Below are positions 13,752 to 51,078 of a DNA stretch of 64,000 bases, piece after piece. Numbering within the stretch: the stretch's first letter is position 1; every line of letters starts with the position of its first letter. Position numbers and translations under genes: made by a program. Under the pieces are notes generated by a model. The model saw only the letters and a list, made by a program, of their open reading frames with translations, was not told the origin of the DNA and did no database searches. Source of the stretch: Marinifilum caeruleilacunae (lineage in GTDB: Bacteria > Bacteroidota > Bacteroidia > Bacteroidales > Marinifilaceae); NCBI RefSeq assembly GCF_013141825.1, contig NZ_RZNH01000012.1, forward strand, positions 1 to 64,000, in the 5' to 3' direction.

Positions 13752-13771
13752 TGGAATCTGGAATCTATTTT

Positions 13772-47910: not shown

Positions 47911-48255
47911 ATGCCATATTTAAAAGTTCAGACCAATGAAAGTTTCTCTAATAAGAAACAACAAAGCTTTTTAAAAGAGTGCTCCGCCTTAATCTCTTTT
48001 GAGCTGGGAAAACCTGAAAAATATGTAATGACCGCTTTCGAACCAAAAATTGAAATGACCCTAAGTGGATCGGCAGAACCAGCCATGTTTTTACAATTAA
48101 AAAGCATTGGTTTGCCCGACACAAAAACCAAAGATTTATCGAACAAATTTGCAAGTCTTGTAGAAGAGCAACTAAAAATTCCAAAAGATCGGGTTTACGT
48201 TGAATTCATGGATGTACCCAGAGGTTTTTGGGGTTGGAACGGAATTTTATTCTAG
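47911..48255 (+). CDS. MIF-superfamily (tautomerase-like) protein
   Basis: A 114-residue protein of the macrophage migration inhibitory factor superfamily. The catalytic Pro2 follows the initiator Met (MPYLKVQTNE), the family segments KPEKYVMTAF and KIPKDRVYVEF are present, and it ends with the ordered MDVPRGFWGWNG. It may tautomerise phenylpyruvate-like compounds; the real substrate is unknown. Bacterial MIF homologues are uncommon. It lies 128 nt after the Spx-like gene with no shared promoter evident. Confidence 0.85.
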   Translation: MPYLKVQTNESFSNKKQQSFLKECSALISFELGKPEKYVMTAFEPKIEMTLSGSAEPAMFLQLKSIGLPDTKTKDLSNKFASLVEEQLKIPKDRVYVEFMDVPRGFWGWNGILF

Positions 48256-48382: not shown

Positions 48383-48445
48383 ATGACATTAACATTGAAA
48401 TACAAGAAACAGAATAAACGCAATAAACAGTTGTTGTTTGGATGA
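48383..48445 (+). CDS. Lysine-rich leader peptide of lysC-lysA
   Basis: A 20-codon open frame too short for ordinary gene finding. Its product MTLTLKYKKQNKRNKQLLFG has five lysines (codons at 48398, 48404, 48407, 48416, 48425), three of them in the middle of the frame. It lies between a plausible promoter (TTG at 48326-48328, TACAACTT near 48346) and the terminator at 48479, ahead of lysine-biosynthesis genes. No strong Shine-Dalgarno is seen, which is normal here. Expression is not shown by sequence alone. Confidence 0.6.
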   Translation: MTLTLKYKKQNKRNKQLLFG

Positions 48446-48447
48446 GA

Positions 48448-48506
48448 TTGTAGAATAATGTAATGCTTAAAACATAAGGCCTGCAGAGATTCTGCAGGCT
48501 TTTTTT
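48448..48506 (+). promoter_or_regulatory. Candidate lysine attenuator
   Basis: The terminator hairpin has perfect 9-nt arms (48479-48487, 48491-48499) with a GAT loop, then seven T at 48500-48506. A competing segment TTGTAGAAT at 48448-48456, just past the leader stop, can pair with ATTCTGCAG at 48489-48497 (nine pairs, two G-U). A ribosome paused at the lysine codons would leave it free; one reaching the stop would cover it. It meets the terminator's 3' arm, not the usual 5' arm, so the exact switch is uncertain. Confidence 0.6.
48479..48506 (+). terminator. Intrinsic terminator in the lysC leader
   Basis: GCCTGCAGA and TCTGCAGGC pair perfectly and are followed by seven T. It stands 75 nt before the lysC start codon, between leader peptide and gene, not after a gene, so it must be read through for lysC to be made. 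Confidence 0.85.
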
Positions 48507-48581: not shown

Positions 48582-49892
48582 ATGAAAGTTTTAAAGTTTG
48601 GTGGAACTTCAGTCGGATCCCCTGAAAGAATTCAGAATCTGGCAAACCTGGTTCAATGCAACGAACCTGTAATTATTGTTTTATCGGCTATGGCAGGAAC
48701 CACAAATGCTTTAGTTGAAATTACTGATCTCCTTTACCGAAAGGATATGAGCAAAGCTAGTGAACAAATCAATAATCTGGAAGAACAATATCGAAAACGA
48801 ATTGAAGAACTGTACACCAGCGAGGAATATAAAACCAAAGGAAATGAACTGATTACATCCCATTTTGATTACATCAGAAATTTTGTAAACAGAAGTTTTA
48901 CGGCATTACAGGAAAAAGCAATTTTAGCACAAGGCGAATTAATATCGACTGCCATGTTCCATTTTTACTTGTCTGAAATTGGTGTAAATTCGGCCTTGCT
49001 ATCGGCTTTAAACTTTATGAGAATTGATAAGGATGGTGAACCTGACTATTTCTACATACAGGAAAACCTTGAGCGTATTCTTACAGAACAAGCAGACCAA
49101 AATTTGTTTATCACACAGGGTTTTATTTGTCGAAATGCATATGGAGAAGTAGACAATTTAAAGAGAGGTGGCAGCGATTACACAGCATCTCTTATTGGAT
49201 CTGTTTTACAGGTAGATGAAGTTCAGATTTGGACCGATATCGACGGGTTTCATAACAATGATCCAAGATATGTGGACAATACTTCGGCATTGCAACAATT
49301 ATCATTCGATGAAGCTGCTGAGTTGGCCTATTTTGGGGCTAAAATTATGCACCCTTCCAGCATTATGCCTTGTAAACTCAAAAGTGTTCCGGTGCGACTA
49401 AAAAACACATTAAGCCCTGCCGAAGAGGGAACTCTAATAACCGATGATGAAACAGGAAAAGGAATTAAGGCAATTGCTGCTAAAGATGGAATTACTGCGG
49501 TAAAAATTAAATCGGGCAGAATGTTATTGGCTTATGGATTTCTAAGAAAAGTATTTGAAATTTTCGAAATCTATAAAACACCAATTGACATGATCACCAC
49601 TTCGGAGGTAGCCATTTCCTTAACCATTGATGATGCAACAAATTTGAAAGCAATTGAGGCAGAATTGGTAAAATTTGGGATGGTAGAAATCGATGAAAAC
49701 CAATCGATAATTTGTATTGTTGGTGATTTTATTTCAGAATCGACCGGAAGTGCAAAAAAAGTACTGGAAGCATTGGAAAACATACCATTACGAATGATAT
49801 CTTACGGCGGTAGCAAACATAACATTTCAGTTCTTATCAATCAGGAAGATAAAGTTTCGGCCCTTCAAACATTAAGCAAAAATTTATTTTAA
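48582..49892 (+). CDS. lysC: Aspartate kinase, monofunctional
   Basis: A 436-residue enzyme that phosphorylates aspartate, the first step to lysine, threonine, methionine and diaminopimelate. The kinase marks KFGGTSVG at the start, RGGSDYTASLIG near residue 195, and a C-terminal regulatory part with ACT domains (KIKSGRMLLAYGFLRKVFEIF, then SIICIVGDF) are all present. It is not fused to homoserine dehydrogenase. It is followed 28 nt later by lysA and preceded by the leader and terminator, so lysine level likely sets expression. Feedback inhibition through the ACT domains is likely but not tested. Confidence 0.94.
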   Translation: MKVLKFGGTSVGSPERIQNLANLVQCNEPVIIVLSAMAGTTNALVEITDLLYRKDMSKASEQINNLEEQYRKRIEELYTSEEYKTKGNELITSHFDYIRNFVNRSFTALQEKAILAQGELISTAMFHFYLSEIGVNSALLSALNFMRIDKDGEPDYFYIQENLERILTEQADQNLFITQGFICRNAYGEVDNLKRGGSDYTASLIGSVLQVDEVQIWTDIDGFHNNDPRYVDNTSALQQLSFDEAAELAYFGAKIMHPSSIMPCKLKSVPVRLKNTLSPAEEGTLITDDETGKGIKAIAAKDGITAVKIKSGRMLLAYGFLRKVFEIFEIYKTPIDMITTSEVAISLTIDDATNLKAIEAELVKFGMVEIDENQSIICIVGDFISESTGSAKKVLEALENIPLRMISYGGSKHNISVLINQEDKVSALQTLSKNLF

Positions 49893-49920: not shown

Positions 49921-51078
49921 ATGTTTAACAAGAGTAGAATAGAACAATTCAAGCATTTACCCACTCCATTTTATTATTATGATATGGAGTTGCTTAAAGA
50001 GACTTTAGATCTTATTCATACCGAATCGTCGAAGTATGGATATCATGTTCATTATGCGGTAAAAGCCAATGCCAATCCAAAAATCATGAAATTGGTACAA
50101 TCTTATGGTTTTGGTGCCGACTGTGTAAGTGGAAATGAAGTAACCAGATCTTTAGAAACCGGGTTTTCAGCAGACAAAATTGTGTATGCTGGTGTTGGAA
50201 AATCAGACAGAGAAATCTTAACTGCGCTAGAAGCAGGGATTTTTTGTTTCAATTGTGAGTCGATTCCTGAAATAGAGTTAATCAATGAATTGGCTGAACA
50301 GACTAATAAGACTGCAAGAATTGCAATCAGGATTAATCCAAACGTTGACGCCAACACGCATCACTACATCACCACCGGCATTGAGGAGAACAAATTTGGA
50401 ATTAACCGTTGGGAATTTGATTCGGTACTGGAAACACTTGAAAAGTCGAAGAATATCAAATTGGAGGGCTTACATTTCCATATTGGTTCTCAGATTACCG
50501 ACACCGAAGTATTTAAAGGTCTTTGCATTAGAGTAAATGAAATCCAGCAATGGTTTAACGATCGCCAAATATTTGTAGACCACCTAAATGTGGGTGGCGG
50601 TTTTGGTATTGATTACGATCAGCCAGATGTAAATCCCATTTCTGATTTTGTTACCTACTTTGGAATTTTTAATCAATTCCTTGATTTAAAACCAAATCAG
50701 CAGTTGCATTTTGAATTGGGGAGATCGGTAGTAGCACAATGTGGAAGTCTGATTTCTAAAGTCTTATATATTAAAAATGGTGCTAAAACCAAGTTTGCCA
50801 TTCTTGATGCAGGAATGACTGAACTTTTGCGTCCGGCTCTTTACCAGGCTTATCACAAAATTGAAAACATTACTTCTGTTGAAACAGAGGAGGTTTATGA
50901 TGTGGTTGGACCAATTTGCGAATCGTCGGATAGTTTTGGTAAGGCTGTTAGCTTGCCAGCAACCAAAAGAAATGATTTGATTGCTCTAAGATCGGCTGGT
51001 GCTTATGGTGAGACCATGGCTTCGAGATACAATCTTAGAGATATCGCAGAATCGATTTTCTCAGATGAATTAAAATAA
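49921..51078 (+). CDS. lysA: Diaminopimelate decarboxylase
   Basis: A 385-residue PLP enzyme that decarboxylates meso-diaminopimelate to lysine, the last step. The PLP lysine is in HYAVKANANP, with HIGSQ, GGGFGIDY for the phosphate, ELGRSVV and the cross-subunit Cys in CESSDSF. The final GAYGETMASRYN also fits. It forms an operon with lysC, so the first and last enzymes of the lysine path share control. It ends at a strong terminator. Confidence 0.94.
   Translation: MFNKSRIEQFKHLPTPFYYYDMELLKETLDLIHTESSKYGYHVHYAVKANANPKIMKLVQSYGFGADCVSGNEVTRSLETGFSADKIVYAGVGKSDREILTALEAGIFCFNCESIPEIELINELAEQTNKTARIAIRINPNVDANTHHYITTGIEENKFGINRWEFDSVLETLEKSKNIKLEGLHFHIGSQITDTEVFKGLCIRVNEIQQWFNDRQIFVDHLNVGGGFGIDYDQPDVNPISDFVTYFGIFNQFLDLKPNQQLHFELGRSVVAQCGSLISKVLYIKNGAKTKFAILDAGMTELLRPALYQAYHKIENITSVETEEVYDVVGPICESSDSFGKAVSLPATKRNDLIALRSAGAYGETMASRYNLRDIAESIFSDELK

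Follow-up and report, generated by a model that had tools for sequence, protein, structure and literature searches.

A probable ribosome-mediated attenuator with a lysine-rich leader peptide upstream of lysC-lysA in Marinifilum caeruleilacunae

The leader-peptide attenuators trp, his, thr, leu, ilv and phe of Proteobacteria provide the general scheme of amino acid control by a stalled ribosome. Lysine control of lysC is usually explained by a riboswitch or by feedback. Lopatovskaya 2010 is said to describe a leader ahead of lysQ in Lactococcus lactis. In the available passage of PMC4833913, the lysQ leader is grouped with histidyl-tRNA regulation, the specificity of the permease being altered; because that sentence concerns histidyl-tRNA, lysQ was rejected as an instance of a lysine leader. 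In the available passages of other papers, lysine operons are described as riboswitch-controlled and histidine, threonine and phenylalanine operons as attenuator-controlled (PMC1262725), lysine riboswitches are described as rare in metagenomes (PMC2211319), and a leuA attenuator with an anti-antiterminator is reported for Shewanella, whose lysC is assigned to a riboswitch (PMC2659441). According to the passages at hand of PMC2965389, leader-peptide systems had not been demonstrated outside Proteobacteria and Actinobacteria before the Firmicutes case presented there. Bacteroides short frames reminiscent of leader peptides are mentioned in the passages at hand of PMC7366714. PMC9723704, to which a list of 64 structured 5' regions belongs, gives clues for leader-peptide attenuation at Flavobacterium amino acid operons, lysC not being named in its main text. 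In the passages at hand, both of these later papers on Bacteroidota treat such leaders in general terms only. The literature searched, which excludes most subscription papers, contained no description of a lysC leader rich in Lys, and the lysine specificity of the leader switch may itself be new.

The window, i.e., the whole 64-kb stretch of DNA that was analysed, carries on its + strand, in this order, a short leader frame, a spacer, a terminator, lysC and lysA (Table 1). A sequence-only reading of this DNA had described a 20-codon frame with five Lys codons, a stop codon, a terminator with seven T and then lysC and lysA, and all of this was borne out by direct reading, which placed the leader start ATG at 48383 and the stop TGA at 48443-48445. 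The putative translation contains 5 Lys in 20 codons, so that a short frame upstream of the operon has a cluster of codons for the amino acid that the operon makes. Window lysC was found to be 92% identical to lysC of M. flexuosum. The leader region folded better than 200 of 200 shuffled sequences (z -4.39). No tRNA genes were found in the 64-kb window.

Table 1. Positions of the leader, RNA and gene features in the window.
Feature	Position	Strand	Basis
Leader peptide frame MTLTLKYKKQNKRNKQLLFG, 20 codons + TGA	48383..48445	+	Homologues of the frame in all 23 unique leaders of the family
Control region, Lys codons 6, 8, 9, 12, 15	48398..48427	+	Codons 9, 12, 15 Lys in 23/23
Segment 1, protector 5' strand (leader codons 2-8)	48387..48405	+	22/23 folds
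Segment 2, protector 3' strand (48448-48452 + 48456-48465), overlaps antiterminator 5' strand	48448..48465	+	Folds
Antiterminator 5' strand: UGUAGAAU (48449-48456), UGUA (48459-48462), GCUU (48465-48468)	48449..48468	+	Folds, conservation
Antiterminator 3' strand: AGGC (48477-48480), UGCA (48482-48485), AUUCUGCA (48489-48496)	48477..48496	+	Folds, conservation
Intrinsic terminator, 12-bp hairpin 48476-48502 + U-tract 48500-48506	48476..48506	+	Read directly; folds
lysC, aspartate kinase	48582..49892	+	TIGR00657 above cut-off; AA_kinase + ACT domains
lysA, diaminopimelate decarboxylase	49921..51078	+	TIGR01048 above cut-off

Alignment of the 23 unique family leaders demonstrated that three Lys codons, with an exact three-codon spacing, were invariant in 23/23. 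At these positions (codons 9, 12 and 15), AAA and AAG were used in 11 and 12, 22 and 1, and 22 and 1 leaders, respectively. Three of the four codon positions lying between the invariant Lys varied (Gln, His, Leu; Asn, Tyr, Ile, Val; Arg, His, Pro), and the fourth was an unvarying Asn AAT in all 23. Invariant Lys with synonymous codon changes and mostly varying neighbours points to selection on lysine rather than on nucleotides alone. Two additional Lys were found in 14/23 and 16/23 of the leaders.

A very improbable alternative is that the hairpin merely terminates the upstream MIF-family gene and that AT-rich DNA alone accounts for the Lys-rich frame. Lys codons are common in such DNA, the single-sequence shuffle p value was 0.005 in the window and reached 0.144 among the other family leaders, and the MIF-family gene ends at 48255, approximately 220 nt before the hairpin. 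However, the conservation of the Lys codons with synonymous change is a stronger argument than a chance test on one sequence, and the pattern proved to be rare. When 264 kb of the genome itself, window included, was scanned on both strands for terminator hairpins within 200 nt upstream of ORFs of at least 150 codons, 39 were found; when short frames were scored for Lys within 12 codons, only the hairpin of the window (1/39) had one with at least four Lys, the runners-up having three. A search of the 5.27-Mb assembly with the Lys-core pattern, two mismatches being allowed, gave a single hit. A covariance model built from the whole family element likewise detected one copy in this genome; when 198 genomes of the order were searched, 11 others gave matches, all weak, with a best E of 0.049. 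Moreover, the frame, the Lys codons and the hairpin persist at lysC loci that showed no MIF-family gene: in Ancylomarina-type loci, the leader was kept with lysC and the upstream MIF-family gene was found in 0/8 (six distinct genomes, within the DNA examined). The upstream-gene terminator was rejected on this ground, and lysC in flavobacteria has versions of the element with a different sequence, which also speaks against it.

The terminator, positioned between the leader and the first structural gene, consists of a stem 48476-48487/48491-48502 of 12 bp, including one G-U, and of seven T at 48500-48506; its pairing was held in 97.8% of cells among 23 family sequences. The earlier reading had proposed a competing structure of nine pairs (48448-48456 with 48489-48497) and had named as its weakness that it pairs with the 3' arm of the terminator. 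The nine pairs exist and include wobble pairs. They form the outer helix of an antiterminator, UGUAGAAU/AUUCUGCA, but not the whole of it: two nested inner helices, UGUA/UGCA and GCUU/AGGC, take the terminator 5' arm, to which AGGC and UGCA belong, AUUCUGCA lying in the terminator loop and 3' arm. The weakness is therefore answered because the inner helices capture the 5' arm. The antiterminator is one long hairpin that was the best fold once the transcript entered the 3' arm and a ribosome covered the first Lys codons; with five bases of the 3' arm transcribed, it still ranked first in 6/7 sequences shown, L016 having already switched away. Its pairs were kept in 90.2% of cells among the 23 family sequences, vs 27-55% for slid partners, and no pair was changed on both sides in these 23 sequences. 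It had also been considered that the nine pairs merely reflect the CTGCAG palindrome and that the antiterminator acts on the 5' arm only; this was dropped since, in transcripts ending a few bases into the 3' arm, both pairings are nested within a single hairpin.

A third, predicted structure, the protector, pairs bases among the first 30 of the leader with an AUGURA element; this helix was part of the best fold in 22/23 family sequences, the exception being L007, and it agrees with the ribosome-mask results given below. Covariation of the protector in fixed columns of the 23 family sequences was not above shuffles; we think that this null result arose because the family protector shifts by codons between genera. 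In folding, the protector, the antiterminator and the terminator were mutually exclusive.

Direct binding of lysine or tRNA-Lys by a riboswitch or T-box-like RNA, the frame being incidental, was also considered. A conserved non-coding stretch, GAATnATGTRANGC, lies between the frame and the terminator in most family members and speaks for such an RNA, but it is accounted for as an antiterminator strand, and the frame is conserved at the amino acid level. The whole 64-kb window contained no Rfam match at the gathering cut-off, L-box and T-box included, and both the T-box and the lysine riboswitch were also absent among ten matches at E up to 5; the riboswitch and the T-box were rejected on this basis. 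The statement of the sequence-only reading that no L-box is present was therefore correct for the window, and it was extended to 0/39 genomes searched for the lysine riboswitch (RF00168), with at most 50 first-pass candidates per genome scored; the control for this search was positive in 4/14 control genomes. A + strand match to Thr_leader (RF00506) remained below gathering (19.0 bits vs a cut-off of 55, E 0.31). Given these results, an RNA that binds its ligand directly is extremely improbable, and a leader-peptide attenuator is preferred.

The dependence of folding on the position of the ribosome was calculated with a mask that, counted from the first base of the A-site codon, covered 18 nt upstream and 12 nt downstream, which is an assumed footprint. 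The readout was the mean probability that the terminator 5' arm was captured before the 3' arm emerged, and the folds were equilibrium folds of truncated RNA, not kinetics. For the 23 leaders, mean capture was 0.68 with the mask at the first Lys, 0.28 at the last invariant Lys, 0.32 at the stop and 0.23 with no ribosome. Measured against the stop or the no-ribosome state, whichever was higher, the mean gain was 0.34, vs -0.07 for shuffled leaders; individually, 14/23 family sequences were at or below 0.05 (60 shuffles each), these sequences being related and so not independent, and in 9/23, window included, the predicted switch was not above shuffles at 0.05. The capture of the window itself was 0.72 at the first Lys, 0.62 at the stop and 0.09 without a ribosome, with a shuffle value of 0.15 when taken alone. 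It had been suggested earlier that a ribosome at the stop codon would mask the competitor; in the window, capture was still high at the stop and fell only after release. The stall position thus selected the fold in silico.

This effect was not specific to Lys. Masks from the start through three codons before the last invariant Lys all gave 0.60-0.69 (0.60 at the latter position), including 0.61-0.67 at codons ahead of the Lys run. Since early-codon masks act alike, the effect needs an early stall, and the Lys codons would explain, in the folding model, why that stall falls at lysine. A leader attenuator that senses general translation speed, or an amino acid other than lysine more than lysine itself, is worth weighing: the mask result would suit a stall anywhere in the initial two thirds of the frame, one leader position is Arg in 19/23 family leaders and another is the Asn noted above, and Odoribacter-like relatives have one Lys, then Gln or His, then Met-Met. 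Nevertheless, Lys alone occupies several invariant positions while its codons change synonymously, lysine is the product of the operon, which was counted in favour of a lysine attenuator, and a KK.KK cluster is common to 18 flavobacterial leaders. An attenuator of this other kind is considered very unlikely.

On full-length RNA, the terminator was the best fold even with the ribosome mask in 7/7 sequences folded; therefore, the switch must be kinetic. With high confidence, based on leader conservation and modelled folds, we propose that the region belongs to the trp/his/thr type of ribosome-mediated transcription attenuators, senses charged tRNA-Lys and controls lysC-lysA, and the earlier suggestion of ribosome-mediated attenuation at lysC is supported to that extent. 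When lysine is ample, the ribosome would run through the leader and depart, after which codons 2-8 would pair with 48448-48465; with the protector so formed, the terminator 5' arm would stay free and transcription would end at approximately 48506. When lysine is short, the ribosome would stall on the first Lys codons, in and beside segment 1, and block the protector; 48449-48468 would then capture the emerging 5' arm and, after it, the loop and the upper 3' arm, and polymerase would continue into lysC. The protector is likely the reason why a ribosome that has finished and departed allows termination. This is a known mechanism at a new address: its parts and their conservation were found by sequence comparison, and the exclusive pairings and the mask dependence by folding; in the cell, the leader would presumably be translated, transcription would presumably end at the terminator, and the switch would presumably respond to lysine.

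Attenuation is probably at home in this genome since a Thr-rich leader, MMNMPIIGMGGAMGIITTTTTTTTGTL, precedes a thrA-like gene. At this locus (L082:1208-1291, contig C136), the leader is followed by a hairpin, GGGGACCCTTTAGGGGTC, ahead of the thrA-like aspartokinase (826-codon frame), and together they are likely a second leader-peptide attenuator. The 264-kb scan described above misses the Thr leader at thrA as the hairpin there is without the required T-run. When that scan was run for 11 other amino acids at a threshold of at least five per 12 codons, one Thr case was flagged, on the minus strand at 13752. Two more aspartokinase-like genes lie approximately 5 kb apart on contig C11 (94013-95155 and 99862-101007; L083 and L084), and inspection by eye of 250 bases upstream of each revealed no Lys leader.

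The distribution of the leader was studied in GTDB species genomes. A leader and terminator with Lys were found at 24 of the 80 closest lysC loci (L001-L019, L023, L061 and L064-L066); in this reading, L018 has three Lys per 12 codons, L023 was judged by eye with its hairpin below the cut-off, and L038, with 12 bases upstream, offered nothing to read. Window-type lysC was present in 54/57 genomes of the GTDB family of the window. In the six genera of the Marinifilum-Labilibaculum-Ancylomarina group, the leader was found in 23/23 lysC genomes, two of which rest on coordinate matches (L118 with L006, L135 with L016). Of the remaining 31 family genomes, 27 were read: 8 had a terminator and a Met-containing leader, and 19 had no accepted leader-terminator pair, two of these being flagged by a lax rule and not accepted. 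In a phylum sample, 37/296 genomes had window-type lysC (E up to 1e-90); among 29 loci besides that of the window, 2 had a leader, both of the Flavobacterium type, and 27 had none; the lax rule picked out four more loci of this sample, which were rejected. Candidates flagged by the lax rule were rejected because the frames were tails of longer open frames (L136, L178, L182), because there was no Lys-rich frame by a stricter rule (L099, L103) or because the hairpins were weak (L101, L108, L153). The sequence-only reading had proposed to check in relatives whether the frame and the terminator co-occur at lysC; together with the Lys codons and the antiterminator, they do so in 23/23 unique leaders of the family and, in a different sequence, in 18 flavobacterial leaders. 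The arrangement is absent at most other lysC relatives, and therefore it belongs to certain groups. Judged by these sequences, two groups carry the leader throughout, and elsewhere its occurrence is scattered.

The gene lysA lay directly 3' of lysC in 45/62 leader-bearing loci, and in the other 17, all of the Flavobacterium type, it was not found. Because lysA also adjoined lysC in 59/98 comparison loci, one of which (L135) has a leader, this neighbourhood is no marker of the leader. In a Marinifilum MAG (L006:2757-3000, also L118), approximately 156 extra bases separate the terminator of the leader from lysC; a single inverted repeat, short and imperfect, was all that was found in them. Odoribacter-like lysC loci (L137, L138, L143-L146, L160, L161) combine a terminator with a frame that contains [YH]K[QH]MM close to its end; these frames have few Lys and at least two Met, with FAG before the stop in 7/8, and in the loci read by eye, GCAGGCU can pair with AGCCUGU of the terminator 5' arm.

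A second type of leader was found in flavobacteria. In the Flavobacterium family, 24/197 genomes had window-type lysC; the leader was present in 15/15 loci from three genera, and of nine loci from a fourth genus, 8 were without an accepted leader, two flagged frames there being tails of longer open frames, and one was not oriented. The 18 Flavobacterium- and Myroides-type leaders (17 distinct) read MILSNLKK[GAS]KKQ[YN]LRRTS and relatives and share the KK.KK cluster. In their antiterminator, GUCGUGA, which includes the stop codon of the leader, is paired to UCACGAC, located in the loop and 3' arm of the terminator, and a second helix joins UUCCU to AGGAG of the 5' arm; its covariation score was reached by 7/500 shuffles, and the antiterminator's score was slightly exceeded by one slid version. 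The protector pairs UCUAAC, from the codons that immediately precede the Lys run, with GUUAGA, which follows the stop, and is rebuilt in other letters in L061, L066 and L064. Its covariation (0.131 vs 0.072) was reached by 0/500 shuffles and exceeded that of every slid version. The flavobacterial protector is thus supported by covariation. In the mask test, the gain was 0.39 vs -0.06, with 15/18 sequences at or below 0.05 (40 shuffles each). Modelled in this way, the flavobacterial leaders follow the same logic as the Marinifilum type in a different sequence.

A TAnnTTTG box, which we take to resemble the Bacteroidota -7 promoter element, was located 24-29 nt before the leader ATG in 20/20 flavobacterial loci, including two repeats (L061, L064, L066, L096, L097, L163-L177); a promoter right before the leader fits attenuation. 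The 15 loci L163-L177 have no lysA beside lysC within 1.5 kb, and L061, L064 and L066 have it. Two further, unrelated versions, in L019 and L023, also fold into an antiterminator. The antiterminator of L065 folds as well, but a mask on its first Lys codon changes nothing.

It is possible, although rather doubtful, that Bacteroidota have repeatedly come to sense lysine at lysC by leader-peptide attenuation, which would take the place held in other phyla by the riboswitch, with several origins or rebuilds (Marinifilaceae, the Flavobacterium type, L019, L023 and L065), and that in Odoribacter-like relatives the control codons have moved off lysine, the attenuator changing the amino acid it senses. 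A lysine-specific switch operated by a stalled ribosome would widen the set of amino acids handled by attenuation and would give a testable control to a group without a detected lysine riboswitch. The sequence-unrelated versions would offer material for studying how attenuators evolve and how they may come to sense a different amino acid.

Among known systems, the lysQ leader resembles the present one in being a predicted leader gene at a gene named for lysine. The lysine riboswitch (RF00168) acts at the same gene, lysC, and likewise leads to termination when lysine is plentiful, but it senses lysine itself through a conserved aptamer. The leuA attenuator of Shewanella differs in its use of leucine codons and in belonging to Gammaproteobacteria. 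Compared with the Proteobacterial attenuators, the proposed element differs in that lysine would be sensed, in its occurrence in Bacteroidota, in matching no Rfam family at the cut-off and in its antiterminator, which at lysC takes the terminator 5' arm, the loop and the upper 3' arm. It shares with them a frame rich in codons for the product, a mutually exclusive set of antiterminator, terminator and predicted protector, and control codons located in or beside segment 1.
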